Assembly: GCF_018986915.1 (NCBI RefSeq)
Contig: NZ_CP076723.1
Span: 3,319,501-3,383,500, forward strand
DNA length: 64,000 nt
DNA from: Geomonas oryzisoli
Lineage (GTDB): Bacteria > Desulfobacterota > Desulfuromonadia > Geobacterales > Geobacteraceae
Reading direction: 5' to 3'
A program made the translations under genes and the position numbers. The notes under the pieces were generated by a model. It made no database searches and was not told the DNA's origin. It saw only the letters and a list, made by a program, of their open reading frames with translations. Shown here piece after piece: positions 1-62,155 of the stretch (position 1 is its first letter; every line of letters begins with the position of its first letter).

Positions 1-3000
1 TTGTAGTACATCGCACCGTCTTCCTCGGGATAGAGGATGTCGGCACGCTCGATGGTGGAGGCGTAGCTGTAGTCGACTCCGCCTACGTTGACGTCATGGA
101 CGAAGTTGATTTCACGCGGCTGGCCGAGTTTGTTGTAGCCCTCGAAGTAACCGGTGAGGTCGCCCTTGTAGGCCTTGATGCGGACCGGCTCAAGCGGACG
201 CATCATCATGTTGCCGTCGTCACCCTCGATGCTCCACCCCTGGGCGGTGTGACGCATCGGCTCGCCGGTAGCCGCGTCGACTACCAGGTTGTCGTAGGGG
301 TCAAGGATCGGGGAGTTGCTCGGGTCGTAGCTCTGGGTGGACGGAAGCGCCGGACCGATCATGTCGAAGCTCCCTTTGAAGAAGCCTTTGCCGCTGGCAT
401 GGCAATCGGCACAGCCGGTTTTACCCTTGGCGTAGATGGCGGTCGGTTTCACGCCGTGGGTCACCATGAACGGCGCGCCGATCAGGGTGAGGGTGGTGCC
501 ATCCCAGGATTTGCCGTCGGTGGCGTTCTTGATGGCGCTGCGGTAGTTCTTGTAGCCGCGGATCTGGTCCGGCTCGGTGAAGACCACCGCACCACTCCAG
601 ACGGACGCGTACTTCCAGTTGTCGTTGGCGAACCTGCCGGTCTGCGGGTTGTACAGGCTCTGGTATGCGCCGGCGGTCGGGTCGGTCATGTTGGCCGGGG
701 TGCCGAAGCCACCGAAGCCGGTGGAGATTACGGAAAGCGGTCCCGGCATGAAGTTGAAGCCGGACTTCAGGTCGCGCATGATCCACGGGTCGAAGATCGG
801 CTTCTCGAACCCGGAGGTGTTGTTCGCGTCGGGAACGTCACCGGTGAAGATGTCGCGGTAGCCCCTAAGCGACGGTTTGGTGATGTCGTTGCCCTGGGCA
901 TCGAGGTGGTGGTTACCCGCCAGGTCGGCATCGCCGATCAGCAGGCCGCCCGGCACGCCGTCGCCGTTGGCATCGACCGAACCGCTCTCGTTGTTCCAAA
1001 GCACTGCGGTGATCGGGTTGGTCAGGTACAGCTTGCGACGGAACTGCATGTCGGTTTTCGGGGCGTTATCCATGCTAAGCGGCAGTTCCATGTTGCCGTA
1101 AGGCTGCCACATGACAACCGGTTTCCACGGCTTGAGCTCGCCGCCCATCTTGGTTACGTCTGCGCCCATGCCGGTCGGGTCCTCGAACAGACCGAGCATC
1201 CCCCTCTCGGGGTCGGTGCCGACGATGGCCGGGAAGCGCATGCCGGAGCTGGCATCGAGCGAACGAACGGCCATGCTGACCTTGTTCACGTGGCAGACGG
1301 TGCAGTCCATGACGTCGAGGTGGTTACCCCGGCCAAGGACGGTACCACCGGCAACCTTGCCGTCTTCCTGGGTGGTGAAGTTGGACAGCCTGGGCACCCC
1401 TTTGCCGCCGTACTGGCCGTGGAGCCCCATCTGGTTGACAACCTGGGTGAGGTTGGCCATGAGGCCTGCCTTGGTGTGGGCGGTGGTCGGGTCGGGCGCG
1501 CCGAAGGTGTCGATGGCGTTGCCCTGGTAGTCGGTGCCGGTCACATGGCAGAACTCGCAGCGCTTGATGGTGTTGCGGGTGTCATGCTTTTTGATGGTGG
1601 CAGCGAGATCGCCACCCTCGACGACCGGAGCGCGCTCCTTGAACGCCGGCAGGCCGTCCTGGATGGTGGAGGCCGCATCGAAGCCGCGGGCCGGGTCGCA
1701 CTGGTTCTTGTCGGTGGAGTTGCCGGTGAAGTGGCAACCGGCGCAGCCGAAGGAGCCGTGAACATCCTGGCCGGTCTGCCATGCGTCGCCGCGCTTGAAC
1801 CACTCGGCGCGGGGGAACGGCATGGTGGAGCGCTTCAGGATGTTCTGGTCGACGGGCTTGCCGTCCATGGTCGAGTAGTACAGCGGGCCGGTCATGGCCA
1901 TGTTGCCGCCGCCGATCTCACCCTTGGTCGGATCCAGGGCGTTGAACGGAGAGGGGCCCATCGCCTGCGGGTAGGTGAGGCCGGCCATCATCATGGTGCC
2001 GGCGTTCTGGCCGGTCACCACCGGGGAGGTGCCGCTTCTCATGAAGGGCGCGTTGATGTCGTAGTTGACCATCTTCTTGCCCAGGGGGCCGACGCCGTTA
2101 GCCGGGTCGTACACCATCGGTGCGGAGGAGAGGAAGCCGGTGCTGGTGCCGGTGACGCCGAACATCTCGGGGAAGTTCTTCAGGGTCTTGGTGGCGTGGC
2201 ACTGGTGGCAGTTGTTCTCGTCAGGCTTTCCTTTGATCTGGTCGGTGACCTTGGCGGTCAGGAAGACCAGCTCGTGGGACGAATAGCTCGCGAAGCCCAT
2301 CTGCGGCAGCATGGCGCCCATCGGGGTGTCACTGATCTTCACGAAGGAGGACTTGCCGCTGTTCGGGTCGTACCCCATGTAGGTCGGCGACAGGGAGAAC
2401 ATGTCGAAGAGCCCGGCGCCGGTGGTCGGGGTGGCCGAGAGGGAACCGGCCTGGACCATCACGGAGGCGCTGACGTTGTCGTAGCCCTTGAGGTGGCAGA
2501 ACAGGCAGTCCATCTCCTTGACGTTCGGCATCATGAGCTGGCCGGCCTTGACGGTGTAGGGAGCGCCGCCGTTGTTGTTGGCCATGGTCATGTCTTTGGG
2601 TGCCCAACCGTTGGGAACGATCATCGGGCCGCCGTCCGGGAGGTTCGGGTCAGGCGCGCCGCCCATCCCCATGTAGACCGGGTAGACCCAGGGAGACATG
2701 GCGACGAAGGATTTGTCCATACCGGTGGAGGAGTAGTTCTCCCACACGGTCGCGGTGATCGGGTTGAGGTTGGGTGCCTGCCCCATGAAGGCCGGGCCCC
2801 AGTCGGCCAGTGCCCTGGCCGGGAGGCGGGTGCCCATCCGGTCCTGCTCGTAGAAGACGCCGCCCACGTGGCAGGTACCGCACATGGTAGCCTGATCCCA
2901 CAGGGACATGTCGACCTTCGGGTACGCGTTGCCGTAGGCGTCGTTGCCGCCTTTAAGGAAGTTCGCAAAGCCGTCAACACCCGGCTGCATGTAGTTGATG

Positions 3001-3518
3001 TACTGACCGCTACCGTTCAGCTGATAATCCGCCACCTGGCGGAGAGAAGGCGGTCACCACTTGCCGTTGTGCCCGTGGGACTGAACCCAGGGCTTGTTGG
3101 AGGCGAGACCGGTCTGGGTACCTTTGGGTACCAGATCGTCCGTGCCGGTGCTGACGAACAGGCCACCCTTGGAGTTATCCATCCACTCGTTGAAGCCGAG
3201 CGCGGCATGGTAGGCGTGCTTGGAGAGATCGTCGTAGCTCTTGGCGAGTTTGGAGTTGCCGGCCGCGGTGTTGCCGTGGCAGGCGACGCCGTTTTGGTCG
3301 CCGAAGCAGGTCTGCTTCGGGGAGTAGGGCATACCCTGTTTGGTCACCCTGTCGACCATGACCGGGGCTTTGGGGAAGCCCATCTGCTGGGCCACTTCTT
3401 CGTAGGTGTACAGCTGGATCGGCGGGTGCGCCGCCATGGCGATGCTCGCGCCCATGGTGACGCCGGCGACCGCCGCTGTAACCGTCAGAAGCGAACTTGT
3501 CTTTTTCGTTCTCTTCAT
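1..3518 (-). CDS. Large multiheme c-type cytochrome, probable selenoprotein (3' end outside window)
   Basis: Secreted electron-transfer protein. The start is the ATG at 3518, preceded by an AAGGAA ribosome site and followed by a Sec signal peptide (about residues 1-29). The reading frame meets one TGA at 3054-3056 (codon 155) and then stays open to the left edge, at least 1,172 codons. Downstream of the TGA, in the same frame, are seven heme motifs: CGTCH (213), CLFCH (338), CHQCH (437), CAGCH (592), CEFCH (654), CTVCH (739) and CADCH (1036). I checked each against the frame set by the ATG. N-terminal to the TGA, C71 and C80-H81 form a CX8CH, which is not a standard heme motif. A SECIS-like hairpin follows the TGA, so I infer selenocysteine rather than a stop. 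The alternative is a nonsense-mutated gene. Within the annotated 154-residue frame there is no CXXCH, so that short product alone would make little sense. Confidence 0.8.
3028..3056 (-). promoter_or_regulatory. UGA codon with SECIS-like hairpin
   Basis: On the minus strand the UGA (3056-3054) is followed by 10 nt, then a perfect 6-bp stem UCCGCC/GGCGGA (3043-3038 with 3033-3028) closed by the loop AGGU. The loop begins 16 nt after the UGA and has G at its second position. The E. coli fdhF SECIS has loop AGGUCU 17 nt after its UGA, and bacterial SECIS rules ask for a G in the first two loop bases and about 16-37 nt spacing. The match in stem, loop and distance is what makes selenocysteine likely. 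The selenocysteine machinery is not in this window. Confidence 0.7.
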
Positions 3519-4477: not shown

Positions 4478-6226
4478 CTAAAAGGAGCGCAGCGCGGGTC
4501 TTTTCGTTCCCAGCACCTTGGCCGCGGAGGAACCGGGGCCGTAGGTCCTGGGGTTGCCGGAGTGGCAGCTGGAGGTGCAGGACTTGGGGAGTGCGGTGGA
4601 GTCGTAGCTCGCGACGATGCCGAAGTTGGTGACGAAGTTGATGAGGTGTGCGTTTTTCTGCACCGTGCCGCCATGCCCGCTGCTGACGCCGTGGGGGTCG
4701 TGGCAGATGAAGCACCCCACCCCCTGCTGTTTTACGTGCACGTCGTGCAGGGCGAGGTTCTTCGCCGGCGCGTAGAAGGGAGAGGTGGGGGTGAAAAGGG
4801 TGTCCTTGTTGTGGCAGCGGTAGCACAGGGCGTAATTGCTTTCGCTGTAGCTCAACGGGTAGAACTCCGTGTCGTAGCGCTGCAAAAGCATGTACTTGAA
4901 CGATGACCCGTGCGGGCCGTTGGGGCCGCTGCCGCCGGCCTTGACGCTTTGGTCGCTGCCGTGGCAGTCGCTGCAGTAGATGACGCTTGAGGTGGAATAC
5001 CCGAGGTCGGTACGCAGGCTGGGGACGCTGTCGCCCCGTCCCTGGGCCATCACCGGATGAAACGAGGGGTTGCCGGGGGAGAATTCCAGGCGGGTGTTCA
5101 AGGTAGCCACCTGCCGGGTGATCACGGTGCTGGAGAAGTTGTTGTCGCCGTGGCACTTAAGACAGACCTCGTACTCGTAGGTTGCCGTCTTCACCTCTCC
5201 GGTCATGGCGACCCCGCGCACCTGGGAGAGCCTGCCGTTCACGTAGGGGGCTACGGCAGCGGCGCCGTTGGCGGCGTGGGGGTTGTGGCAGTCCTCGCAC
5301 TCGACGTGCCGTGCCGCGCTCAGAGGGTTCTCCGCGTCGTCGTGTACTCCGAAGGTCTCGTTCACCTTGTGGGCGGAGAGTCCCCCCAGCAAAGAGAAGA
5401 CGTTCTTGCCGCTGCCGGTCCCGGAGTGGCACGGGGCGCAGTTTTGCTCCTCGGGGGTCTCCTTCATCAGCCTGGGGGCGATCTTGGCGTTGTGCGCCAC
5501 GTGGCAGTTGCCGCACCCGTTCACGGAGGTGGCGGCGTTCAGGTAGTGTCCCCCCTGCTCCCACCCGGTCTGGTTGTGGCAGCCGACGCACAGCGCGGAG
5601 CCGGCCGGGTCCATCACCAGGAACTTGCCGTAGGGGTTGTTGTGCGGGTTGTGACATGTGGTGCACTGCAGGTTCTTGTCCGCGTCCAGCTTGAGCTTTG
5701 CCGGAATCAGTGTCGGCAGACGCAGCTGGTGGTTCTTGGCCACCAGTTCCGGGGAATACTGGAAGGAGATCGGGTGGTCGTTGGTCAGGTTCTTCCCCTG
5801 GCTGCCACCCAGGTTGGTAGGGCGGTCCTGCGGGATGGTGGTGTAGCCGCCGGCCATGGGGATGGTGACCTGGTTGATCAGGGCACCGACGGCGATGGTG
5901 CCGTCATGGCAGGAAAGGCAGAGCCGGGAGGATCCGGTCGGCTGCCCGGGCTTCGCGAAGCGGGTCGAAGAGCTGTACAGGTCGTAGACGGTTGTCGACT
6001 CCTCGCGGCTCCAAAGCGGGGTGACCTGGCTTGCGTGATGCGGCGTGTGGCAGAAGATGCAGACCTGCTGCTCGGACGCGGCCTTGATCGGCCCGGGGCC
6101 GCCGGCGGAGAGGTTGTGCTTGGTGACCAGGATGCCGTCCTGCATGGCCGCCTGGGCCGGATAGGGCAGCTGCAACAGGACGCCCCCGGTCAAAACTGTG
6201 ATGGTGCAAAAGGCGCTAATACGCAT
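4478..6226 (-). CDS. Dodecaheme c-type cytochrome
   Basis: A 582-residue exported cytochrome, last gene of a five-gene operon. Signal peptide is about residues 1-26 (cleavage near AQA). There are eleven CXXCH motifs (CIFCH, CLSCH, CTTCH, CVGCH, CGNCH, CAPCH, CEDCH, CLKCH, CSDCH, CYRCH, CFICH) and one CTSSCH, which is a CX3CH variant seen in multiheme proteins, giving 12 predicted hemes. Its N-terminus (CIFCHTPHH, later CLSCHDGTIAVG and NDHPISF) resembles that of the tetraheme protein at 11254-12162, so the two share an ancestral module. Most likely it is the extracellular or outer-membrane partner of the barrel protein at 7291-9258. It starts 24 nt after the NHL lipoprotein gene ends. Confidence 0.9.
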   Translation of the reverse strand: MRISAFCTITVLTGGVLLQLPYPAQAAMQDGILVTKHNLSAGGPGPIKAASEQQVCIFCHTPHHASQVTPLWSREESTTVYDLYSSSTRFAKPGQPTGSSRLCLSCHDGTIAVGALINQVTIPMAGGYTTIPQDRPTNLGGSQGKNLTNDHPISFQYSPELVAKNHQLRLPTLIPAKLKLDADKNLQCTTCHNPHNNPYGKFLVMDPAGSALCVGCHNQTGWEQGGHYLNAATSVNGCGNCHVAHNAKIAPRLMKETPEEQNCAPCHSGTGSGKNVFSLLGGLSAHKVNETFGVHDDAENPLSAARHVECEDCHNPHAANGAAAVAPYVNGRLSQVRGVAMTGEVKTATYEYEVCLKCHGDNNFSSTVITRQVATLNTRLEFSPGNPSFHPVMAQGRGDSVPSLRTDLGYSTSSVIYCSDCHGSDQSVKAGGSGPNGPHGSSFKYMLLQRYDTEFYPLSYSESNYALCYRCHNKDTLFTPTSPFYAPAKNLALHDVHVKQQGVGCFICHDPHGVSSGHGGTVQKNAHLINFVTNFGIVASYDSTALPKSCTSSCHSGNPRTYGPGSSAAKVLGTKRPALRSF

Positions 6227-6250: not shown

Positions 6251-7294
6251 TTAGTCCAGCCAGACGTAGCCGAACAGCTGGAAACGCTTGTTGAACGTGT
6301 CCGCGATGTAGATGTTGTCGTCCTTGTCGATGGCGATCCCCGACGGCATCCAGAATTCCCCCTTGCCGCTGCCGGTGCTGCCGAAGGTGATCAGCAGGCG
6401 CCCCTTGGAGTCGAACACCTGCACCCTGTCGTAGAGGGCATCGCAGACGTAGATGTGCCCCTCGCTGTTGACCGCGATCCCCTTTGCCTTGCCGAAGAAG
6501 CCGGGGGTGTCGCCGGCCTCGCCGAAGCTGTCCAAAAAGACGCCGTCCTTGGAAAAGATCTGGATCCGTGCGTTCAGGGGGTCGGTCACGTACAGTTTCC
6601 CTTCGATATCGACGGCGATGTCGGTGGGGAGGTTGAACTCCCCCCTGCCGTGCCCGGAGCGCCCGATCCGTCGCACCTCTTTGCCCTGGCGGTCGAAGAC
6701 GACGACCTGGGCGGCCAGGGTGTCGGTGACGTACAGGAGCTTGTTCAAGGGGTTGAAGACGATGCCGGTGGGTCGTTGCAGCCCGTCCGTGAACTGGACC
6801 AGGCGCCGGTCGCTCAGGCTGAACCGGTATACCTTCCCGGCCCCCGCGTCGGTAACGTACGCCATGTTGTTCTCGTCTTCGGTGACCCCGATCGGCAGAT
6901 TGAAGACGCTTTCCTCGCCGCCACTTATGAAGAAGTAGCGCTTGAGCTCGCGGTCGAAGAGGTGCACCCCGCGCTTTTGGGAGTCGACCACGAGGACCCG
7001 TTTCCTGCAGTCGGCATGGATGCCGTAGGGACGCACGATGGTTTCCTCTCCCCCCCCGGTCACCATGCGCCACAGGCTGGAGACCAGGCCGGTGCCGATG
7101 TGAAGGTCCTCGGCGTTGGCGGCGGCACCGGTCCAGACGATGCGGGTGGGGTTGGGGCTGGAGGGCCAGTTGCGTTCGGCTCCCCGGTCCGAGCCGGGCT
7201 TCACGCAGGAGGTAACCAGCAAAGCCGCCGCCACGCACAACAGACGACGATACAGCCGGGACCGCCCCTTCCTGTTGCTAGCTGCTGTTCTCAA
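6251..7294 (-). CDS. NHL-repeat lipoprotein
   Basis: A 347-residue predicted lipoprotein with a six-bladed NHL beta-propeller. The lipobox is LVTSC near residue 30. About five or six repeats of the form 'hxxPxGIAVDxxGxhYVxDxxNxRhQhF' run from about residue 85 to the C-terminus, with clear units such as LPTDIAVDIEGKLYVTDPLN and MPSGIAIDKDDNIYIADTFN. The start is a TTG at 7294 whose last two bases overlap the TGA of the upstream barrel gene (TTGA), with AAGGAGG ahead of it, so translation is probably coupled. NHL propellers recur beside Geobacter outer-membrane cytochrome genes. They are thought to be structural or assembly partners, but their exact role is not known to me. Confidence 0.87.
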   Translation of the reverse strand: MRTAASNRKGRSRLYRRLLCVAAALLVTSCVKPGSDRGAERNWPSSPNPTRIVWTGAAANAEDLHIGTGLVSSLWRMVTGGGEETIVRPYGIHADCRKRVLVVDSQKRGVHLFDRELKRYFFISGGEESVFNLPIGVTEDENNMAYVTDAGAGKVYRFSLSDRRLVQFTDGLQRPTGIVFNPLNKLLYVTDTLAAQVVVFDRQGKEVRRIGRSGHGRGEFNLPTDIAVDIEGKLYVTDPLNARIQIFSKDGVFLDSFGEAGDTPGFFGKAKGIAVNSEGHIYVCDALYDRVQVFDSKGRLLITFGSTGSGKGEFWMPSGIAIDKDDNIYIADTFNKRFQLFGYVWLD

Positions 7295-9258
7295 AATGCC
7301 CTCCTTAGGGAGAAGCCGATGGACTCGCTCAAGGAGGTCCCCAGACTGGAGTAGGACCAGTTCATCGACGAGGTCAGCATCGCGGTGAGCTTGCCGAACT
7401 TCCCCTCGAGGTTCAGCAGCAGCCCGATGTACTGCGCCATGTCCCCGGTTTCAACAAGGGAGTTGGAGTAGCTGGCCTTGAGGCGGGCGGCGATGTTGTT
7501 GAAATTTCGATAGTAGGACGCCTGGCATCCCAGGCTGTTCAGCCAAGGCTCGGCGCCCCCCTGCTGCGTTCCCCAGGTCATGCGGTCGCTGGCGTCCAGG
7601 GAGAGGTTGCCCCGCAGGTACGGCGCGGAGTAGCTCCAGGAGGAGTAGATGTAGTAGTGGTTCTGCGCATAGGTCTTGTCGTACCCCATTTCCCCTCCGA
7701 GCTTGTGCCGCCCGAGGTTGGCATTGGCGCCGGCGTCGTAATGGCTGGTCCCCACCAGCGTCACCGCCGTGGCCTGTCCCCTGATCACCTCCTGTCCGGT
7801 CGAACGCGCGTTGGCGTAGAGCCGGTACTTGTCGCCGAAGAGCCCTACGGAGGTCGAGGCGCTGTGCGAGGTCGCGATGCTTGCGGTGGAAGGGTCGCGG
7901 CGGTAGCGGTAAGAGATGAGAACGGTGCTGTCCCCGGCGAAGTCGGCGATCAGCTCGATCCCGTCGGCAATGACGGTGTAGCTCCCCGGGGGATAGGGGA
8001 GCATGGTCTGGCCTCCCACCACCTCGATGCTGTCGGCGATGAAGGTTTCGTTGTTCAGCTTGATGCGGCGCGGCAGGATGAGAGGCGTCGTGTGCTGCTC
8101 GGCGGTCACCTGAACCTCGGAGACCGCGCCGGTGCTCTCCTGGTACCCCTTGCCGTAGTTGTAGCCTGCGTTGAAATTGCTGTCCTGCGGCAGACGCTTG
8201 TTGTAGTTGAAAGCCAGGCCGCCGGAGAGGGAGCGGCTGGCGCCGTTGTCGAACTGCTGTTCGTTGCCGTAGAGATTCACGCTGGTGGCGAGGCTCCCCA
8301 TGAGCCTGTGGGTCAGCGACCCGGTGGCGGTGCGGGTGCGGGACTCCTGGACGTCGGACATGCTTTTGGTTTCCATCCAGGTGGCGCGCCCCTGCAGGGC
8401 CTTGCCGAACTGCCAATCCATGTTGCTGCTCAGGCTCTGGTTGTCCATCCGGACCACTCCGGTGGCCTGCTGGTAGACGTAGGAAGCGCCAAAGCCGCGG
8501 GAGAACCCCGTCGGCGACATCCAGGTCTTGTTATAGCTGGCCTGCGCGAGGGAGGTGGCGTTGTGGGTGGCGAGGCTGCTTTCGACCGCGGCGCTGTCGC
8601 TCTCGGTCATGGAGACCCCGAGGTTGAGGCTCCCCAGCATCCCGAGGTTCGGCGTCGCGTTCACCACGAAGGAGTCGCTGCTCTGCCTGAAATTGCGGAC
8701 CAGCCCGGACGTTTGCGTGCTCTGCCTGCTGTACTGGATGCTGGAGGGGACGAAGTTGTTCAACAAGGAGAGCTGTGAAACCAGGCTGTCGGTATCGGTG
8801 CTGTAGGTGGGGCCGAAGGTCTCGGAGATGGTCTGCCTGCTGGAGTTGGCGGAGATGCTGACAGGGAACGAGTCCTTGCTGAAAAGCATGGAGTTGATGT
8901 TGTAGCGCAACTGCACATCCGAGCTGTCTGCGCCGTTGCGGGAGTCCTGCTGATATTCCAGGTACAGAGAGGTCTTTCCCTTGATCAACTGCGGCGCCAG
9001 GATGCTGTACTCAAAACCGAAATTGTAGTCTTCACTCGACGAGGTGTCCCTTTCACCGGGCTGACCGGAGCCCTTGGCGTGGCTGACGAAGTAAGAGGCC
9101 CCGGCGGACTGGGAGATGTCGCGAATGGAAAGCAGCGTGAGCGCCCCGGCCTGCCGTTGCGTAGCCAGCAGCAGACACACCGTCAGCGCCACCGCAAACG
9201 TTGCCGGGCGCCCCGGCGCGAAGCCCCGCCCCTTCCCATTGCACAAAAAGTACTGCAT
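7291..9258 (-). CDS. Outer-membrane beta-barrel of a porin-cytochrome conduit
   Basis: A 655-residue protein with a signal peptide (ends about residue 40, near GALT) and then mostly alternating amphipathic strands rich in Tyr, Ser, Asn and Gly. It closes with a barrel-type C-terminus ending in Phe (SLRRAF). Length suits a barrel of 20 or more strands, like the porin subunits that sheathe cytochromes in Geobacter porin-cytochrome complexes. No heme motif is present. A short globular insert sits near residues 395-455 (around 'IKLNNETFIADSIEVVGGQ'). It lies between a pentaheme lipoprotein and an NHL lipoprotein/dodecaheme pair, which supports the conduit reading. Family-level identity is not certain. 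Confidence 0.8.
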   Translation of the reverse strand: MQYFLCNGKGRGFAPGRPATFAVALTVCLLLATQRQAGALTLLSIRDISQSAGASYFVSHAKGSGQPGERDTSSSEDYNFGFEYSILAPQLIKGKTSLYLEYQQDSRNGADSSDVQLRYNINSMLFSKDSFPVSISANSSRQTISETFGPTYSTDTDSLVSQLSLLNNFVPSSIQYSRQSTQTSGLVRNFRQSSDSFVVNATPNLGMLGSLNLGVSMTESDSAAVESSLATHNATSLAQASYNKTWMSPTGFSRGFGASYVYQQATGVVRMDNQSLSSNMDWQFGKALQGRATWMETKSMSDVQESRTRTATGSLTHRLMGSLATSVNLYGNEQQFDNGASRSLSGGLAFNYNKRLPQDSNFNAGYNYGKGYQESTGAVSEVQVTAEQHTTPLILPRRIKLNNETFIADSIEVVGGQTMLPYPPGSYTVIADGIELIADFAGDSTVLISYRYRRDPSTASIATSHSASTSVGLFGDKYRLYANARSTGQEVIRGQATAVTLVGTSHYDAGANANLGRHKLGGEMGYDKTYAQNHYYIYSSWSYSAPYLRGNLSLDASDRMTWGTQQGGAEPWLNSLGCQASYYRNFNNIAARLKASYSNSLVETGDMAQYIGLLLNLEGKFGKLTAMLTSSMNWSYSSLGTSLSESIGFSLRRAF

Positions 9259-9271
9259 TAAAATTCCTGTC

Positions 9272-9850
9272 TCATTTCAGGAAATACCTGCTTGTACCGG
9301 AATGCGGATCATGACAGTCGATACAGACGACGGACGCCGACTTGATCTTGTCATGCATGGCGGCGGCGAGGCGCTTTTCGCTGTGGCATTTCTCGCATAG
9401 TTTCGACGGTTCCCGGACCAGCAAGGACGGGTAGTTCGCCTCGTGCGGCAGATGGCAGCCAAGACACTCCCCTTCCGCGGCCGGACCATGGGCGAAAGCA
9501 TGTTTGAGTATCTTGGGGTGGCACATGAAGCAAAGCTCCGACTTGGGCTTTATAAGCCCGGAAACCGAGGTTTTCTCCGCCTGGTGGCAGTCGTTGCAGC
9601 GCTTTTCGGCATAAGGGGGATGGGAGCTGTTGGTGGGCGCCGCCGCCTGCTGCACCTCCCTGCCCGCGGCCCGTGCCTTAGCCGCTTGCACCTGCCTTTC
9701 CTCCGCATCGCTGCAGTATTGCTCCAGCGGCGGCAGGACCGGGACGTCGTCGAAAAAGGTCACCAGGAACTGGTGGCGCGCCACCGGGTCACACCCCCCC
9801 AGAAACAGCAGTATGGCCACTAAAAGCCTGCGCACGGAACCTTGAAACAT
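9272..9850 (-). CDS. Pentaheme c-type cytochrome lipoprotein
   Basis: A 192-residue lipoprotein. The ATG at 9850 was chosen over a longer frame because the upstream 56 codons are an Arg/Lys-rich antisense-like stretch overlapping the preceding gene, whereas this start gives a signal peptide with lipobox FLGGC. Five heme motifs follow (CNDCH, CFMCH, CLGCH, CEKCH, CIDCH), spaced as the doubled-CXXCH modules seen in decaheme and NrfB-like proteins. It is likely the periplasm-facing electron entry to the barrel encoded next. It starts 13 nt after the NHL gene ends and finishes 13 nt before the barrel gene begins. The ribosome site is weak, so translation may depend on the gene upstream. Confidence 0.88.
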   Translation of the reverse strand: MFQGSVRRLLVAILLFLGGCDPVARHQFLVTFFDDVPVLPPLEQYCSDAEERQVQAAKARAAGREVQQAAAPTNSSHPPYAEKRCNDCHQAEKTSVSGLIKPKSELCFMCHPKILKHAFAHGPAAEGECLGCHLPHEANYPSLLVREPSKLCEKCHSEKRLAAAMHDKIKSASVVCIDCHDPHSGTSRYFLK

Positions 9851-9863
9851 GCCTGAAGAAAGC

Positions 9864-11093
9864 CTATTTCCCTGCGCCTGCAATCGGCGCGGAATCCGGA
9901 GACTTTTCCTTCTTCTCTTCCTGTGCCTTCTTCTCTTCCTGCGCCTTCTTCTCTTCCTGCGCCTTGCGCTCCTTGATGATCGCCTCCTCCTTTTTACGGA
10001 TCTCCTCGAGCCGCGCATTCAGCAGCCCCTGGTAGTCGACCCCATTCTTCTTGCCCAGGCCGTAGATGCTCACCTTGTCGGCGCCGAACTGGCTGACCAC
10101 GAAGATGACCTTTTCCAGGGTGAAATCGGGGGCAGCCAACTGCTGATAATAAGGGAGGTTGTCGTAAGAGACCGCTATGCCCGCGGGAACGTTGAGGGAC
10201 CCGGGGGTGCCGGGGGCGCCGAAGGACATGAGGAGTTGGAACTGGTCGTTCAGGAGGCGGACTTCCTGGTTGGCCGCATCGACGATATACATGATCCCTT
10301 CCTTGTCGAAGATGACGGAGCGGGGACGGTTGAACTCGGAAAGGGAGGTACCGAGCCGGCCAAACTTGCGCAGCGGGTGACCGTCGCGGTCGAAATGGAC
10401 GATCCTGCCGTCCAGGTTGGTGACGTATACCCCCCCTTTGCCGTCCAGCCCGAGCCCCAGCGGCGAGAAAAGGTGACCTTCATCCGGCCCTTCCTGGCCG
10501 AAACTGCGCACCGGCTCGGAGGTGAAACGGTCATAGAGCTGCACCACGGCTGCCTGGCCGTCCAGGACGTAGAGGTACAGGTCGTCCACCGCAACGGCCA
10601 CAGGCTTCATGGGCTCGCCCCCTATCGCCCTCAGGAAGGCCCCGCTAGGCTCGTATTTGAGCACTTCGTGCCGGACGGTGTCCGTCACATAGATGAAACC
10701 GTCGCTGTCAACGGCCACGTTGATCGGTTTTTTAAGCTGTCCCGGACCGGTGTTGCCGCTTAGGTAGGATGCCTTCTTGTTGACCGGATCGAGGATGGCC
10801 ACCTGGGCCCCTATGGTGTCGCAGACGTAGATGACCCCCTTGCTCACCGCGATGCCGTAGGGTTTCACGTACCCGACCACCTTCTCTTCTTCCTGTCCGA
10901 GGTCAAGGAGTTTTATCGACTTCTTGCCCACCACGTCGTTGGAGCTCGCGATGTGCTTCAGGTACTGCACCCTGGGCGGATCGGGCAGACCCGGCCAGAA
11001 CTGCGGTTTGACCTGTTCTTTCGAAGCGCAGCCGCCAAGGATGGCAAGCGTGAAGGAAACCGCCAGGAAACCTTTTGAATACTTGTTCAGCAT
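9864..11093 (-). CDS. NHL-repeat lipoprotein with charged C-terminal coil
   Basis: A 409-residue predicted lipoprotein, first gene of the operon 11093-4478. Lipobox is ILGGC at about residue 22. NHL repeats cover about residues 80-330 (for example KPINVAVDSDGFIYVTD and FNRPRSVIFDKEGIMYIVD), predicting a beta-propeller. The C-terminal 60 residues are highly charged, with three copies of the heptad KAQEEKK in a predicted coiled coil. The corresponding DNA is a tandem repeat of about 21 bp (about 9905-9965). It is the second NHL lipoprotein of the operon, and the two are clearly related in plan. AAGGAG precedes the start. The upstream 160 bp carry an AT-rich promoter-like stretch (about 11125-11145). 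Confidence 0.87.
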   Translation of the reverse strand: MLNKYSKGFLAVSFTLAILGGCASKEQVKPQFWPGLPDPPRVQYLKHIASSNDVVGKKSIKLLDLGQEEEKVVGYVKPYGIAVSKGVIYVCDTIGAQVAILDPVNKKASYLSGNTGPGQLKKPINVAVDSDGFIYVTDTVRHEVLKYEPSGAFLRAIGGEPMKPVAVAVDDLYLYVLDGQAAVVQLYDRFTSEPVRSFGQEGPDEGHLFSPLGLGLDGKGGVYVTNLDGRIVHFDRDGHPLRKFGRLGTSLSEFNRPRSVIFDKEGIMYIVDAANQEVRLLNDQFQLLMSFGAPGTPGSLNVPAGIAVSYDNLPYYQQLAAPDFTLEKVIFVVSQFGADKVSIYGLGKKNGVDYQGLLNARLEEIRKKEEAIIKERKAQEEKKAQEEKKAQEEKKEKSPDSAPIAGAGK

Positions 11094-23418: not shown

Positions 23419-23609
23419 CGTGCCCGAACCAAACCTGTACCATGCAGTCGCAGTCCTTATGCTTCCGGAGTTACAGCCTGAGCCCACGCCACCAGGTAGC
23501 GGCAGGCAACGCTAAAGGAGGAGATGCACACTCCGGATGTCCGAAGCTGTATGAGGAAAACGCAGTCTCTCAAAAAAACACACAAGTTCTTACAAACAAA
23601 GGAGCTCGC

Positions 23610-26168
23610 ATGACTCAGAAGAATCAAGGAAGGTTACTGGTGTTGTTCGTCTTCGCACTGTCCCTGCTGTCCTTTCAGCTCTGGCGCAACGAGGCGCAGG
23701 CGCAGTCGTCCTACTATACGGCCATGGGGTGCGTGAACTGCCATACCACTACCTCCACCTGCAACGGCTGTCACGCCCACGGCACCCACGCCACCAGCAC
23801 CAAGAACACCATCAACGTGACCGGCACCACCAACAAGACCTCCTACGCTCCAGGTGAAACCGTATCCGTCACCATAGCCGGCGGCTACCGCACCGGTTGG
23901 GTGCGCGCCGTGCTGCTCGACCAAAGCGGCGCCCAGTTGGCAATCTCCAGCGGCACCGCCAGCGGCATGGGAAGCTCGACCACCCTCCCTGCCGTCCTGA
24001 CCGCACCGGCGCCGGCCGCGGGGGGGACCTACACCTGGCAGGTGGGGTGGTACGGCAACCAGTACGACATCGCCGGGGCCGCTTTCGGCAGCTGGCTCCC
24101 CGACGCCAACAACCCCAACCACGGCTACGAGATCGTCAGCACCAACTCCTTCACGGTGGCCGCGGCTCCCGCCGCCGACACCACCGCGCCCGTCGTGGGC
24201 ACCTTCACCCTGCCGGCCACCGCGACCAGCCTGACCGTACCGGTCACCGCCTTCACCGCCACCGACAACGTCGCCGTCACCGGTTATCTCGTCAGCACCA
24301 GCTCGGCAGCACCGGCTGCCTCCGCCGCCGGGTGGAGCGCCACCGCTCCGGCAAGCGTCACCGCGGTCGCCGGGAGCAACACCTTCTACGCCTTCGCCAA
24401 GGATGCCGCCGGCAACGTCTCCGCCGGCAAGAGCGCCAGCGTCACCGTCACCCTCCCCGACACCACCGCTCCGGTCGTGGGCACCTTCACCCTGCCGGCC
24501 ACCGCGACCAGCCTGACCGTACCGGTCACCGCCTTCACCGCCACCGACAACGTCGCCGTCACCGGTTATCTCGTCAGCACCAACTCGGCAGCACCGGCTG
24601 CCTCCGCCGCCGGGTGGAGCGCCACCGCTCCGGCAAGCGTCACCGCGGTCGCCGGGAGCAACACCTTCTACGCCTTTGCCAAGGATGCCGCCGGCAACGT
24701 CTCCGCCGGCAAGAGCGCCAGCGTCACCGTCACCCTCCCCGACACCACCGCGCCCGTCGTGGGGACCTTCACCCTGCCGGCCACCGCGACCACCCTGACC
24801 GTACCGGTCACCGCCTTCACCGCCACCGATAACGTCGCCGTCACCGGTTATCTCGTCAGCACCAGCTCGGCAGCACCGGCCGCCTCCGCCGCCGGGTGGA
24901 GCGCCACCGCTCCGGCAAGCGTCACCGCGGTCGCCGGGAGCAACACCTTCTACGCCTTCGCCAAAGATGCCGCCGGCAACGTCTCCGCCGGCAAGAGCGC
25001 CAGCGTCACCGTCACCCTCCCCGACACCACCGCCCCCGTCGTGGGCACCTTCACCCTGCCGGCTACCGCGACCACCCTGACCGTACCGGTCACCGCCTTC
25101 ACCGCCACCGATAACGTCGCCGTCACCGGTTATCTCGTCAGCACCAGCTCCGCCGCACCTTCGGCCTCAGCCATGGGCTGGAGCATGACTCCCCCGGCGG
25201 TGGTCACCGCGGTGGAAGGGAGCAATACCTTCTACGCATTCGCCAAGGACGCGGCAGGAAACGTTTCGATCGGCAAGAGCGCGAGCGTGACCGTTACCAT
25301 CCCCGCGCCGACCGCCGACACCACCAACCCGACCCTGGTCGTCTCGACCCTGGCCGACGGCTCCTACACCAACAAGGTGACCCTCAACATAAGCGGCAGC
25401 GCGACCGACGCCGGCGGGCTGCAGTCGCTCACCATCAACGGCCAGGCCGTCATCGTGAACCCCGACGGCTCCTTCAGCGCCGCCGTCACCCTGGTGCCCG
25501 GCGCCAACGTGATCACCGTGGTGGCCGTGGACCAGGCCGGCAACGCCCAGAGCGTCGTCCGCACCATCACCTTCGACCCCACCGCGCCGGTGCTCGCCAT
25601 CACCGCCCCCGGCGACAACAGCGACTCGGCCCAGTCCTACATCACCGTGACCGGGACCATCGATGAAAGCTCCACCGTCACCGTGACCGACAACGGCGGC
25701 AACCAGACCTCGGCCGCCATCAACGGCAACACCTTCACCGCCACCGTCAACCTGGTAGCCGGCGTCAACACCATCACCGTCACCGCAACCGACCTGGCCG
25801 GCAACGTCACCAGCGCCAAGCGGACCGTGACCTACACCCCGGCCGGCGTCCTCACCATGGCGGTGACCTACCCGGCGCAGGACATCACCACCAGCAAGAA
25901 CAGCATCGTTGTGACCGGCACCGTGGCCGACACGGTCGGCAAAGCCACGGTCCTCGTGAAGATGAGCGGCCGCACCTACAAGCCCAAGGTCGACAGCACC
26001 GGCGTCTTCAAGCAGCAGCTCCGGTTCCTGAAAAACGGCACCTACGTGATCACCGTGACCGCCACCGACGCCGCGGGCAACAGCAGCACGGTCACCCGCA
26101 ACGTCATCTACCGCAAGGCGACCCTCAGCGAGCTCCGGCTCAAGCACAAAGAGCGCTACGACGACTAA
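23610..26168 (+). CDS. Secreted diheme protein with Ig-like/Bacterial-Ig repeats
   Basis: An 852-residue surface or extracellular protein. The ATG at 23610 has AAAGGAG at good spacing; the open frame further upstream runs through the riboswitch leader and is not used. Signal peptide about 1-34. Two heme motifs, CVNCH and CNGCH, sit just after it (about residues 43-56), followed by a His-rich HAHGTHATS stretch. A beta-sandwich domain (about 65-185) precedes four near-identical 94-residue repeats (190-565) with 'TAFTATDNVAVTGYLVS' and 'FYAFAKDAAGNVS'. Three further Ig-like modules close the protein. Controlled by tandem cGAMP riboswitches, as are several Geobacter surface cytochromes. Role is probably surface attachment or electron transfer; not proven. 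Confidence 0.9.
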   Translation: MTQKNQGRLLVLFVFALSLLSFQLWRNEAQAQSSYYTAMGCVNCHTTTSTCNGCHAHGTHATSTKNTINVTGTTNKTSYAPGETVSVTIAGGYRTGWVRAVLLDQSGAQLAISSGTASGMGSSTTLPAVLTAPAPAAGGTYTWQVGWYGNQYDIAGAAFGSWLPDANNPNHGYEIVSTNSFTVAAAPAADTTAPVVGTFTLPATATSLTVPVTAFTATDNVAVTGYLVSTSSAAPAASAAGWSATAPASVTAVAGSNTFYAFAKDAAGNVSAGKSASVTVTLPDTTAPVVGTFTLPATATSLTVPVTAFTATDNVAVTGYLVSTNSAAPAASAAGWSATAPASVTAVAGSNTFYAFAKDAAGNVSAGKSASVTVTLPDTTAPVVGTFTLPATATTLTVPVTAFTATDNVAVTGYLVSTSSAAPAASAAGWSATAPASVTAVAGSNTFYAFAKDAAGNVSAGKSASVTVTLPDTTAPVVGTFTLPATATTLTVPVTAFTATDNVAVTGYLVSTSSAAPSASAMGWSMTPPAVVTAVEGSNTFYAFAKDAAGNVSIGKSASVTVTIPAPTADTTNPTLVVSTLADGSYTNKVTLNISGSATDAGGLQSLTINGQAVIVNPDGSFSAAVTLVPGANVITVVAVDQAGNAQSVVRTITFDPTAPVLAITAPGDNSDSAQSYITVTGTIDESSTVTVTDNGGNQTSAAINGNTFTATVNLVAGVNTITVTATDLAGNVTSAKRTVTYTPAGVLTMAVTYPAQDITTSKNSIVVTGTVADTVGKATVLVKMSGRTYKPKVDSTGVFKQQLRFLKNGTYVITVTATDAAGNSSTVTRNVIYRKATLSELRLKHKERYDD
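24177..25304 (+). repeat. Four tandem 282-bp coding repeats
   Basis: Units start at 24177, 24459, 24741 and 25023. The first three differ by only a few bases, mostly silent. The fourth diverges in its second half. Copy number may vary by recombination. Confidence 0.95.
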
Positions 26169-57879: not shown

Positions 57880-57949
57880 TTATGCGGGAGGATGTGACCT
57901 GGAGCCATCCAGAGTCGTGATCGGCAAAAACAGGGAGGGAGGGTTCGGT

Positions 57950-60900
57950 ATGGGTAAGAAATCGCTGCTGTTCCTTTGCGCTTTTCTGTCTGTCTCCGTT
58001 GCGCTCTTGTGCTGGAGTGCCACCACCTGGCAATTGCAAACCAAGCTGTCCAACACCGGAGGAACACTCCAGGTGAGAGACAAGGTCCCGCAAACCACCG
58101 CCGGGATCGTCGCGTACCACAACTTCACGACCTCCGCCCCCGTTCCGGTTACGGTCGCCGCGAATACCGGCTACCAGATCGCATCCCTATTCAGGAACGG
58201 GGTTGCCATCCCGGTCGGCAACTACACCTCGCACTACCTCACCACTTTCCAAAAAAGCGGCGCGACGCAATCGCTGGTGGCGGGGTTCGCAGCTCGACAA
58301 GTCACGGTGACCGCCTCGGTATCCGGCCCCGGCAGCATCACTCCCAGCAGTATAAAGGTGAACTACGGCGGGAGCGCCGTCTTCACCGGCGTCCCCAGCA
58401 CCGCCGGCTGCTACCTCACCTCGGCAAGCGGCGGCAGCGTCACCGATCTAAACGGCGCCCCTGTCACCCTTCCCTACTCCGGGACGGTCCGGATCACAGC
58501 CGGCAACGTCACCACGCCCCGAACCGTCACCGCCTGTTACGCCTCCTACAGCGTCGACGCCGGCATCGACCAGCGGGCCCAGATAAACGGCACCGTGCGT
58601 CTGTCCGGGAGCATGGTGGGAGGCGGAGTGCCATCCTGGAGCCAGATTTCCGGCCCCGCTGTTTCCCTGGTCGGCGCAGGCACGCTCACCCCGAGTTTCG
58701 TCGCGGCAAGCACTGGGACCTACCAGTTCCGGCTCACCCAGTCGGTTTCAGGCGTCGCCGTCGCCTCGGCCACGACCCAGGTGGTGGTGGTCGCCTCCCT
58801 GGTCGAGGACATGCGGCTTGGCTGCATGGGGTGCCACGCCGCCACCGGGGTCGTTCCCGCCCCGTACGTATTCACGGGCTGGTCCTCATCGAAACACGTC
58901 GCCGCCGGGGTCTCCTGCATCACCTGCCACACCGACGGCGCCATGCCGACACCGGTGAACTCCTCCAGCGTGGACGCGAACACCTTCGCCTACCGTTCCG
59001 GCGCCGGCAGCTTCTGCCTGAACGGAAGCTGCCACCAGCCCGGCATCACCCACCGTACCGTCGGCATGACCTGCTCGGGGTGTCACGGCAGCTACAGGAG
59101 CCACAACCCGGCAACGACCTTTGGCGCGTCCTTGAATGCCTGCTTCACCTGTCACGGTGCAGCCAACTCCACCCACTACCAGGTCAGGTCCAGCCTTTCC
59201 GCCGCCGACTGCCTGATCTGCCACCGCCCCGCGGGACACGATCCGGCCCCGGATGCGAAAGTCACTGCCGCCCACTTCAACGGCTACACCTCCTACGCCA
59301 ACCCCTCCTATGCCCTGGCCTACGTGACGCCGCTCACAGTCTGCGCCGACTGCCATCGGGACGGGGCCCCCAAGGGGAGTGCCGACGGCGCATTGCTTGA
59401 GTTCCGTCGCGACTGGGCCGCTTCAGGCCACGGCATCGGCCCCGCCTGGAAAAACTCGCCCTACTTCAACTGGAAGACGGCAGGCACCGCGGGGGCCAAG
59501 GCCGCGCAGAGCGCGAGCGTGACGACGGACTGCCAGCGTTGTCACAGCACTGCCGGGTTCCTCAAATTCGCCCTGTACACGAGCATCGACCCGGTCCAGG
59601 CAGGCGCCGAACGCTACAGCGAGCCGCTCACCTGCAACGCCTGCCACCCAAGCGGCGACTTCGCGGCGCCGCGCGCCATCTCCCCGCGCACCGGCTACTA
59701 CAACTACTCGGGGCCGGCGACCGGAAGAGTCCAGGTGAGTGCATCGTATCCCGACGCCGGACGGTCCAACATCTGCCTGGGGTGCCACGTCGGACGCCAG
59801 GCGGGGGCCACCGTGCAGGCGCTCTCCCGGGCGACGGCGCAGAAAAGCTATTCGAGCGCCTTCTGGCGCGACCTCCGCTTCGTCGATGCACACTATCTCT
59901 CCGCCGGCGGCCAACTCTACGGAGCCACCGGATACCACTACCCGGGGCTTTCCTACGACAACGCCGGCGTGAACCACACCGCGATCGGCGACACCGGTGC
60001 TGGCCCCTGCGTCGCCTGCCATCTCCCCTCGAGCTCCCACACGCTCTCCGTTGCCGCCGGCGGCTTCACGCTCTGCAACGGTTGCCACATCGACGGCGGC
60101 CTGGTAAGCGCCGGGTTCCTCCAGCAGAGGCGCGACCAGTTCGCCGGGAGCCTGAAGGCGCTGGCGGCCGCCCTGACCGCCAAGGGGCTCCCCCCCCTCA
60201 CCGATGCCGGCGGCAAACCCGCGTACCCGTACTTCGCCGCGACCAACTGGGGCGGCCGCGACGACGGACCGGGGAACCTCGGCGCCGCCTTCAACTACAA
60301 CCTGCTGGTGCACGACCCGGGCGCCTTCGCCCACAACCCGGCCTACGTAAAAAGGCTGGTGCGCGACTCCATCGACTTTTTGACCTTCGGCAGCATCGAC
60401 CGCGGCCGCGACCTCACCCCGACCATCGAGGCGCTGCTCCCCGGCAGCGCGGACAGGGACAACGCCACCGCCTTCCTCTCCCTCGCGGGTAGCGGCGCCT
60501 CCGCCTGCCAGGTCTGCCACCGGGGAGCGACCGACCCGCTCACCGGCGGCAACATAGTCGCCGACTACGGCGCGAGCAAGCATGCCCTGAGTGCCGGCGG
60601 TGCCGCCTGCGTATCCTGCCATGCGCCGTCGGCCACGACCATCCATCCCAACGCGGCGCCCATGCTGAAGGCGACCTCAGACATCAACCCGAAGTGCCTG
60701 AACTGCCATCCGTTGCATCCCTGGCCCAGCGAGGGGATCTGCACCGACTGCCACAACGGACACCGGCTCAAGGCGGTGCTCCCGGCGCCGCACCTGGCCA
60801 ACTTCAGCACGGCACAGTACGTCACCACGCAGGTTGAGTGCGACAGGTGCCATTACACCGCCGCAGGTTCGAACGTCGCGAAGTTCGTGCTCTTGCAGGA

Positions 60901-62155
60901 ACACCGCGACTGGGCGCAGAGCGCCAAGGGAGACTACCGCTCCCCCGCCCTGACCAGCTTCGATTTCAAGACCATGGGTACTCCGGCACCGGTCACTCCG
61001 GCGACCACCGTACAGCAGGATTGCGTGCGCTGCCACACCACCAGCGGTTTCAACAGGTACGTCCAATCCAACTTCGCCGACATCTCCCCGTTCGGGATAC
61101 CCGGCGCCGCACCCGGCGGCGACCGCACCCGAGAGATGATCGGCTGTGCGGCCTGCCACGCCACGCCCCCGTTCACCGCCAACTACGACAGGTGGAAGGT
61201 CGGCATCGTGGACGAGGTTACCGGCACCCGGGACGTCAGGTCCTGGTACAACTACTCTTCCGCGGCGACAGGGAAGATCATCAGGTCGAAACTCTTCCTG
61301 GACAGCAACGCCTACGACCTCGGCGATTCCAACATCTGCATCACCTGCCACGCCGGCAGGCTGGCCGGCGACGTCATCAAGCAGACCACCACCAGCACGA
61401 CGACCGGCGCGATCATCTGCTCCACGCTCCCCTCCATCGTCTGCCGCCTCGGGAACAATACCCTCGCCGACGGGCTGGTCCACGACTTCTGGGGCAGCGT
61501 CGACTTCATCGACCCGCACGGCGGAGTCGCCGCCAACATGATCTACCCGGACAACCTGCGCCCCGGGTACGAATATCGGGCCGCAGCATCGACCACCGCA
61601 CACGCCAATGTCGGCATGGAGGCGGGCAGAGGTCCCTGCGTCGGGTGCCACATGAGTTCCCCTGCCGGCAGGCACGCCTTCACCGCCTTGTCCACCGCAA
61701 CCAACGGCGTCATCGGTGCCATCAGGAGTGCTGCCTGCAGCGGCTGCCACGGGCCGACCGCGGTGGCGCTCACCCCGTCGGACCTGCAGGGCAAAAAGGA
61801 GGGGTACCAGGCGTCGCTCTCCCTCATCGCCGCGCAGCTCGCGGCCCAGGGGATCCACTACAATCGCGGGAAATCCCCTTACTTCTTCGATACCGCCGAC
61901 GAGGCACAGCAGTCCCAGGCCACCCGCGTAACCAACTGGAACAGATCCGCCGCCTTCCGCGGCGCCCAGCTCATGGGGGCTGCGTTCAACCTGCGGCTGC
62001 TCGACTCGGGAAGCGGCTGGGTCCACAACGGGGTCTACGCCAAGCGGCTGCTCTACGACACCATCGACTACCTTGACGACGGACTCACCAACCACACCGT
62101 GGCCGCCACGGTGCAGGACCAAACGATCCTCTCGTACCTGTACCCGCGGCGCTGA
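57950..62155 (+). CDS. 22-heme c-type cytochrome
   Basis: A 1,401-residue secreted cytochrome. ATG at 57950 behind GGGAGGG; signal peptide about 1-28. An N-terminal beta-rich region (about 30-285) has Ig-like modules ('VTASVSGPGSITPSSIKVNY', 'VAASTGTYQFRLTQSVSG'). Twenty-one CXXCH motifs and one CLNGSCH (CX3CH) lie between residues about 292 and 1265, giving 22 hemes. Blocks at about residues 440-815 and 945-1380 are related: each has a cytochrome pair, 'YNYSGPATG'/'YNYSSAATG', 'NICLGCHVGR'/'NICITCHAGR' and 'YVKRLVRDSIDFL'/'YAKRLLYDTIDYL'. The protein arose by internal duplication. No partner genes adjoin. Confidence 0.93.
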   Translation: MGKKSLLFLCAFLSVSVALLCWSATTWQLQTKLSNTGGTLQVRDKVPQTTAGIVAYHNFTTSAPVPVTVAANTGYQIASLFRNGVAIPVGNYTSHYLTTFQKSGATQSLVAGFAARQVTVTASVSGPGSITPSSIKVNYGGSAVFTGVPSTAGCYLTSASGGSVTDLNGAPVTLPYSGTVRITAGNVTTPRTVTACYASYSVDAGIDQRAQINGTVRLSGSMVGGGVPSWSQISGPAVSLVGAGTLTPSFVAASTGTYQFRLTQSVSGVAVASATTQVVVVASLVEDMRLGCMGCHAATGVVPAPYVFTGWSSSKHVAAGVSCITCHTDGAMPTPVNSSSVDANTFAYRSGAGSFCLNGSCHQPGITHRTVGMTCSGCHGSYRSHNPATTFGASLNACFTCHGAANSTHYQVRSSLSAADCLICHRPAGHDPAPDAKVTAAHFNGYTSYANPSYALAYVTPLTVCADCHRDGAPKGSADGALLEFRRDWAASGHGIGPAWKNSPYFNWKTAGTAGAKAAQSASVTTDCQRCHSTAGFLKFALYTSIDPVQAGAERYSEPLTCNACHPSGDFAAPRAISPRTGYYNYSGPATGRVQVSASYPDAGRSNICLGCHVGRQAGATVQALSRATAQKSYSSAFWRDLRFVDAHYLSAGGQLYGATGYHYPGLSYDNAGVNHTAIGDTGAGPCVACHLPSSSHTLSVAAGGFTLCNGCHIDGGLVSAGFLQQRRDQFAGSLKALAAALTAKGLPPLTDAGGKPAYPYFAATNWGGRDDGPGNLGAAFNYNLLVHDPGAFAHNPAYVKRLVRDSIDFLTFGSIDRGRDLTPTIEALLPGSADRDNATAFLSLAGSGASACQVCHRGATDPLTGGNIVADYGASKHALSAGGAACVSCHAPSATTIHPNAAPMLKATSDINPKCLNCHPLHPWPSEGICTDCHNGHRLKAVLPAPHLANFSTAQYVTTQVECDRCHYTAAGSNVAKFVLLQEHRDWAQSAKGDYRSPALTSFDFKTMGTPAPVTPATTVQQDCVRCHTTSGFNRYVQSNFADISPFGIPGAAPGGDRTREMIGCAACHATPPFTANYDRWKVGIVDEVTGTRDVRSWYNYSSAATGKIIRSKLFLDSNAYDLGDSNICITCHAGRLAGDVIKQTTTSTTTGAIICSTLPSIVCRLGNNTLADGLVHDFWGSVDFIDPHGGVAANMIYPDNLRPGYEYRAAASTTAHANVGMEAGRGPCVGCHMSSPAGRHAFTALSTATNGVIGAIRSAACSGCHGPTAVALTPSDLQGKKEGYQASLSLIAAQLAAQGIHYNRGKSPYFFDTADEAQQSQATRVTNWNRSAAFRGAQLMGAAFNLRLLDSGSGWVHNGVYAKRLLYDTIDYLDDGLTNHTVAATVQDQTILSYLYPRR

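Follow-up and report, generated by a model that had tools for sequence, protein, structure and literature searches.

A giant multiheme cytochrome of Geomonas oryzisoli almost certainly contains selenocysteine (Sec), inserted at an in-frame UGA that is codon 155 of its reading frame. The gene lies at the start of the window, by which is meant the whole 64,000-nucleotide stretch of DNA that was analysed. The support for Sec insertion comes close to the most that sequence can give: the UGA is conserved, distant relatives have Cys in its place, a covarying hairpin that follows it is lost in the Cys genes, and the sel machinery is present. It is highly probable that the insertion takes place in a new protein family. 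SelB and tRNA-Sec would decode the codon, with the hairpin just 3' of it as the signal, and the product predicted from the sequence would be a single multiheme cytochrome of 1,392 residues whose start resembles a signal peptide.

The frame begins on the minus strand at an ATG at position 3518, with the Shine-Dalgarno-like AAAGGAACCACTC ahead of it, and its N terminus resembles a signal peptide when judged by eye. The earlier note had described a frame open over at least 1,172 codons save for the UGA at codon 155, and the frame reading agrees. There is no further stop between UGA155 and the window edge, and in the whole-genome copy, which ends after codon 1392, this UGA is the sole internal stop. 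The seven CXXCH motifs that the note had placed beyond the UGA and in the frame of the ATG were all located in that copy (residues 213, 338, 437, 592, 654, 739, and 1036). Gene calling was said to split the gene, and the 154-residue open reading frame (ORF) ending at the UGA is indeed a separate entry in the ORF list. The spacing of the heme-1 motif is very variable among the aligned relatives, which have CXXCH, CX4CH, CX7CH, or CX8CH. The features of the locus are collected in Table 1.

Table 1. Features of the cytochrome gene and its conserved neighbours (positions in the window)
Feature	Position	Strand	Basis or remark
Giant multiheme cytochrome, predicted to contain Sec	1..3518	-	codons 1-1,172 of 1,392; gene continues beyond window start
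UGA codon 155, read as selenocysteine	3054..3056	-	frame reading and alignment of relatives
Putative SECIS hairpin UCCGCC-AGGU-GGCGGA	3028..3043	-	position, and covariation in relatives
Heme-1-type motif CX8CH, residues 71-81, the single heme motif before the UGA	3276..3308	-	aligns with CXXCH and other CXnCH in relatives
CGTCH, residues 213-217, proposed to correspond to catalytic heme 2 of OTR	2868..2882	-	equivalence via intermediates
Lys447, may correspond to the Lys ligand of OTR heme 2	2178..2180	-	invariant in aligned sequences; equivalence inferred
Cytochrome with 11 CXXCH, 582 aa, conserved neighbour	4478..6226	-	ORF list, comparison of relatives' loci
NHL-repeat beta-propeller protein, conserved neighbour	6251..7294	-	family matches, relatives' loci
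Conserved protein, 655 aa, no family match; suspected outer-membrane barrel	7291..9258	-	family searches, relatives' loci
ORF with 5-CXXCH cytochrome, conserved neighbour; true start probably inside the listed ATG	9272..10018	-	family search, relatives' loci
Second NHL-repeat protein	9864..11093	-	family search, relatives' loci

The protein was found in 19 of the 58 genomes searched, its own included, and exactly one TGA stands in each of the 34 match rows that span residue 155 (own gene included). For the earlier note, an ordinary sense codon other than Cys and no conserved hairpin in close relatives would have spoken against Sec; instead, all 34 rows have the one TGA and the hairpin covaries, and Cys appears at the same column in more distant relatives. 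The matches form two groups. The first consists of orthologues of the window gene, with GKWUxPSLRQ; the second is another giant cytochrome, with GxWUPPSARQ, and its copy in the same genome is some 6 kb beyond the window. Paralogue B, located between these two Sec cytochromes, has Ser at the Sec position. Among 28 aligned sequences (28-80% identity to the window protein) 13 columns are invariant, and ten of these are at the Sec motif, forming the block W-x-Q-x5-G-x-W-U-x-P-S-x-R-Q. In L020 and L040, extra N-terminal heme motifs are in one frame with the gene, and the UGA falls near codon 508 or 601. Directly upstream of Sec cytochromes of the AWUPPSYRQ/GWUPPSYRQ type, four loci (L111, L127, L160, and L163) have a 12-CXXCH cytochrome of about 300 aa.

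A profile of the Sec region has matches in 32 of 141 genomes of the order and in 78 of the 395 genomes sampled from the phylum (50 of 246 genera), where matches often cover a heme motif only and the 78 genomes are not a count of Sec forms. By a hand count from the list, 78 phylum rows span the Sec column, 58 with one TGA and 20 without, and this is the tally free of locus-choice bias. Codon 155 was also read in 101 distinct sequences, as UGA in 80, Cys in 10, Ser in six, and another codon in five; these figures describe inspected loci and are not a frequency, as some came from a UGA-requiring pattern (38 found) and other loci were hand-picked (20 mainly TGA-free rows and 20 with TGA). Sequences with identical first 50 bases were counted once, reducing 110 items to the 101. 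The 10 Cys sequences, which include GNWCPTYQRQL and GGNWCSPAPLYRQL, are all in distant clades, and in the Cys relatives inspected the frame runs through the site without a stop. A tree of 84 rows, used without fixing its root or the direction of change, calls for five or more changes in the UGA label and for two to three in the Cys label; left out of it are L130 as a duplicate, the second (Cys) gene of L130, L144, and every row that does not exceed 250 residues.

The signal for insertion is most probably the hairpin that follows the UGA. The earlier note had described an AGGU loop 16 nt past the codon on a perfect six-pair stem, and loop (3037-3034) and stem (UCCGCC/GGCGGA, 3043-3038 and 3033-3028) lie exactly there. 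A hairpin taken from a single sequence is weak evidence: its folding energy is ordinary (z -0.77, with 39 of 200 shuffles at least as stable), and Rfam gives no SECIS match in the window. No cell of the six-pair stem is unpaired across the 28 aligned sequences. Three of its pairs vary on both sides, and two-sided changes number 22, where shuffling gives 6.9 +/- 2.1 (none of 500 shuffles as high). Two further measures on the same sequences are unremarkable, the number of stem pairs altered on both sides being equalled in 99 of 500 shuffles and the number of pair types in 462 of 500. Some changes in the stem alter the protein and preserve the pair, such as GTG GCG to GTG CCG (Ala to Pro) and TTG GCG to TTG TCG (Ala to Ser). 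In sequences with two extra codons after the UGA (for example, PPSSDSSQLAR), the hairpin shifts together with the Gln-Leu codons.

The presence of the hairpin follows that of the UGA. The five inner pairs are intact in 77 of 79 scored UGA sequences, in none of the 10 Cys sequences, in one of six Ser sequences, and in none of three scored genes with another codon; one UGA sequence and two of the others have no scorable motif, and the Cys genes belong to few clades and hence are not independent. One form with Ser (TCA), L147 in genome G372, has a perfect hairpin and selB in its genome. It looks like a recent loss of Sec, because UGA to UCA is a change of one base and the hairpin is kept. Another Ser (TCA) form, L137, is found in a genome (G172) with no selB over the cut-off. 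As in SECIS elements of the E. coli fdhF type, the hairpin is directly 3' of the UGA and has G/U in its apical loop. It differs from them in its four-base AG[G/U]U loop (AGAU in one case) and its short stem.

A check for sel genes found all of them present in the genome: selA, selB, one tRNA-Sec whose anticodon is UCA, and a selD gene with a UGA of its own. In other genomes, selB is over the cut-off in 78 of 80 chosen among those with matches, against a base rate of 131 of 148 sampled phylum genomes, and its co-occurrence was dropped as a line of evidence. One genome with the UGA form (G220) has no selB over the cut-off.

UGA155 could also be a true stop, so that a 154-residue product would be followed by a separate downstream cytochrome. 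Such an arrangement has the listing of the first part as its own ORF in its favour, together with an in-frame ATG at codon 228 that is preceded by AGGA, the sole start of this kind within 400 nt of the UGA; a conserved operon was likewise raised as an alternative for the Sec cytochrome ExtKL (PMC1914089). However, this ATG comes after the CGTCH motif, at a distance of 73 codons from the UGA, and the downstream part would be without a signal peptide. The UGA is moreover flanked by or within ten of the 13 invariant columns, and the inspected Cys relatives are open across the site, which makes two separate genes very unlikely. Equally slight is the probability that a near-cognate tRNA reads the UGA as Trp or Cys without selenium. 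Against it stand the covarying hairpin that tracks the UGA, the existence of Cys homologues, and the full Sec machinery of the genome. A nonsense mutation or sequencing error, which a lone in-frame stop would normally suggest, has a negligible chance given one TGA in every close-relative row and in most of the phylum rows that span the site.

The giant cytochrome has no NCBIfam model in a search of the window proteins against that collection, and Pfam gives it generic cytochrome matches only, one of them barely over the cut-off. That the family is new and lacks an NCBIfam model can be held with high confidence. The 119 selenoprotein families or subfamilies tabulated in PMC13188914 include ExtKL, GSU2204, and a Sec form of the octaheme tetrathionate reductase (OTR) family, and nothing in that table could be matched to the giant cytochrome. 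Searches of openly licensed literature gave no report of this family. One entry, a "cytochrome c family protein" with PF13435 (WP_013164579.1; PMC9312934), has an apparent counterpart that PMC13188914 names ExtKL; if WP_013164579.1 belonged to the giant-cytochrome family, the family would not be new.

The earlier note knew of no established Sec in cytochromes of this type. This stands for the present protein, which matches the model of neither known case, but not for multiheme cytochromes at large, as ExtKL and Sec-OTR are both on record (PMC1914089, PMC13188914). The protein now called ExtKL was proposed as a Sec cytochrome in 2007 (PMC1914089), and the ext cluster is described in PMC5877670. 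Like the window protein, ExtKL (NF040886) is a multiheme c-type cytochrome with UGA/Sec in Geobacteraceae. It differs in having five hemes and in the place of its Sec (HSIPDGUPTPNRL), which is in a C-terminal part devoid of heme motifs. ExtKL was rejected as the family of the window protein, which has no NF040886 match, and the profile scores of ExtKL against the superfamily of the giant cytochrome are low (34-44); the one NF040886 hit over the cut-off in the same genome is a different locus, an ExtKL. MmcA (TIGR04314) is also OTR-related and gives a weak profile match to some short relatives of the giant cytochrome. It is distinguished by seven hemes and the absence of the second-heme motif, and the available text of the source makes no mention of Sec in it (PMC11024163).

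Profile comparisons place the giant cytochrome in a broad superfamily that is probably related to OTR, distantly and indirectly. The kinship is indirect because the link runs through short relatives and the second Sec group. The window protein has no match to TIGR04315 at E up to 1, and ten relatives reach at best 52.7 bits against a cut-off of 375. Comparison of the short relatives with OTR aligns eight heme motifs in order, and hhalign on differently cut profiles gives 182 and 200 for them against OTR and OTR-like sets. Controls against the OTR-type profiles give 63-94 (three other multiheme sets) and 96-102 (ExtKL). The second Sec group reaches 78 and 122, above controls against one set only, and the window subgroup 43 and 57, below controls. 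The window subgroup is joined to the short relatives at 446 and to the second Sec group at 464. The E-values of hhalign refer to single pairwise comparisons and not to database searches. These values do not show direct membership of the window subgroup in OTR, and the link was kept via the intermediates.

OTR sequences carry N-[FY]-[C/U] before heme 2, and in the 1sp3 chain, by hand-counted numbering, the Cys stands at 64, with a Lys at 153 after heme 4. We take Lys153 to be the heme-2 ligand and Cys64 to be near the active site. Heme 2 is the catalytic heme and is ligated by a conserved Lys (PMC11024163). A Lys follows heme motif 4 in 57 of 77 family rows by a loose pattern, and in the window protein this residue is Lys447, which all 22 aligned sequences share. 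The TYKK stretch that comes after heme 3 was rejected as a source of the heme-2 ligand, as Lys153 of 1sp3 follows heme 4. Four Cys forms of one clade (L131, L132, L134, and L141) have no Lys of the KKRG type directly behind heme motif 4; Cys and Lys may have changed together in this clade.

OTR (TIGR04315; 1sp3) and the short relatives share the eight-heme order, the Lys after motif 4, and a Cys or Sec between motifs 1 and 2, and Sec forms of OTR exist as well (PMC13188914). In contrast, the window protein has about three times the length of OTR, its Sec context is WUxPSxRQ rather than NFUV, and the stretch from Sec to heme 2 is longer. Six OTR-like genes are present in the same genome, with Cys before the second heme motif in the five that were read.

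Sec155 falls in the interval from heme motif 1 to heme motif 2, which in OTR holds Cys64, and Lys447 is in the region of the OTR heme-2 ligand. Sec155 may thus take the place of Cys64 near the catalytic heme and would probably act as a redox-active selenolate beside heme 2. A place for Sec at the catalytic heme is slightly favoured by these comparisons. Sec155 might also be real and stand away from that heme, serving in metal binding, heme tuning, or a redox pair elsewhere, with the likeness to OTR being one of heme-motif spacing only; this is a serious possibility, with somewhat less than an even chance. It is consistent with the controls, which exceed the window subgroup against OTR-type profiles, and with the placement of the residue: of six hhalign runs, a single one pairs W-Sec with F-Cys64, three miss the site, and two place Sec elsewhere, as does the eight-heme comparison of the short relatives, where Sec is also off Cys64. 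It gains as well from the poor quality of the predicted models. Mean pLDDT is 42.5 for an AlphaFold model of residues 30-1172 and 54.1 for one of residues 28-478 (22 sequences each), a search with the latter by Foldseek and VIA-align gave no usable match, and nothing is drawn from either model. Against an off-heme Sec stand the values of the short relatives, about twice those of the controls, the joining of the window subgroup to them, and the invariance of Lys447.

Sec beside heme 2 would have a part in a wider proposal, which is tentative. It envisages widespread outer-surface or periplasmic cytochromes that have Sec at a c-type catalytic heme (heme 2 with His/Lys), as a selenolate or even as a heme ligand, and that would reduce an oxidant from the environment. 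A role as an extracellular terminal reductase has about an even chance. The five neighbouring genes are upstream of the giant cytochrome on the same strand. Their relatives adjoin the orthologue in the Geomonas loci L009-L011, and more diverged ones stand next to a Sec cytochrome of the second type at L060 and L063. The cluster looks like an electron conduit to the outside, and electrons would pass by way of its cytochromes and porin-like component to an acceptor outside the cell.

The family adds a large group to the known selenoproteins, one that annotation will probably overlook for want of a family model. It places Sec in giant electron-transfer proteins of Geobacteraceae and their relatives, and the members with Cys, Ser, or a relic hairpin provide a ready comparison of Sec and Cys within one protein scaffold. 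If Sec is at the catalytic heme, testable questions follow on the substrate and on the selenium dependence of extracellular respiration, and the selenium-heme chemistry, if true, would be a new kind of active site.

Elsewhere on the plus strand of the window, tandem riboswitches of the c-di-GMP-I class (RF01051; 23118-23193 and 23311-23386) precede a 908-aa adhesin-like ORF (23442-26168). A 1,412-aa ORF at 57917-62155 (+) has 21 CXXCH motifs in its frame and no NCBIfam match over the cut-off.
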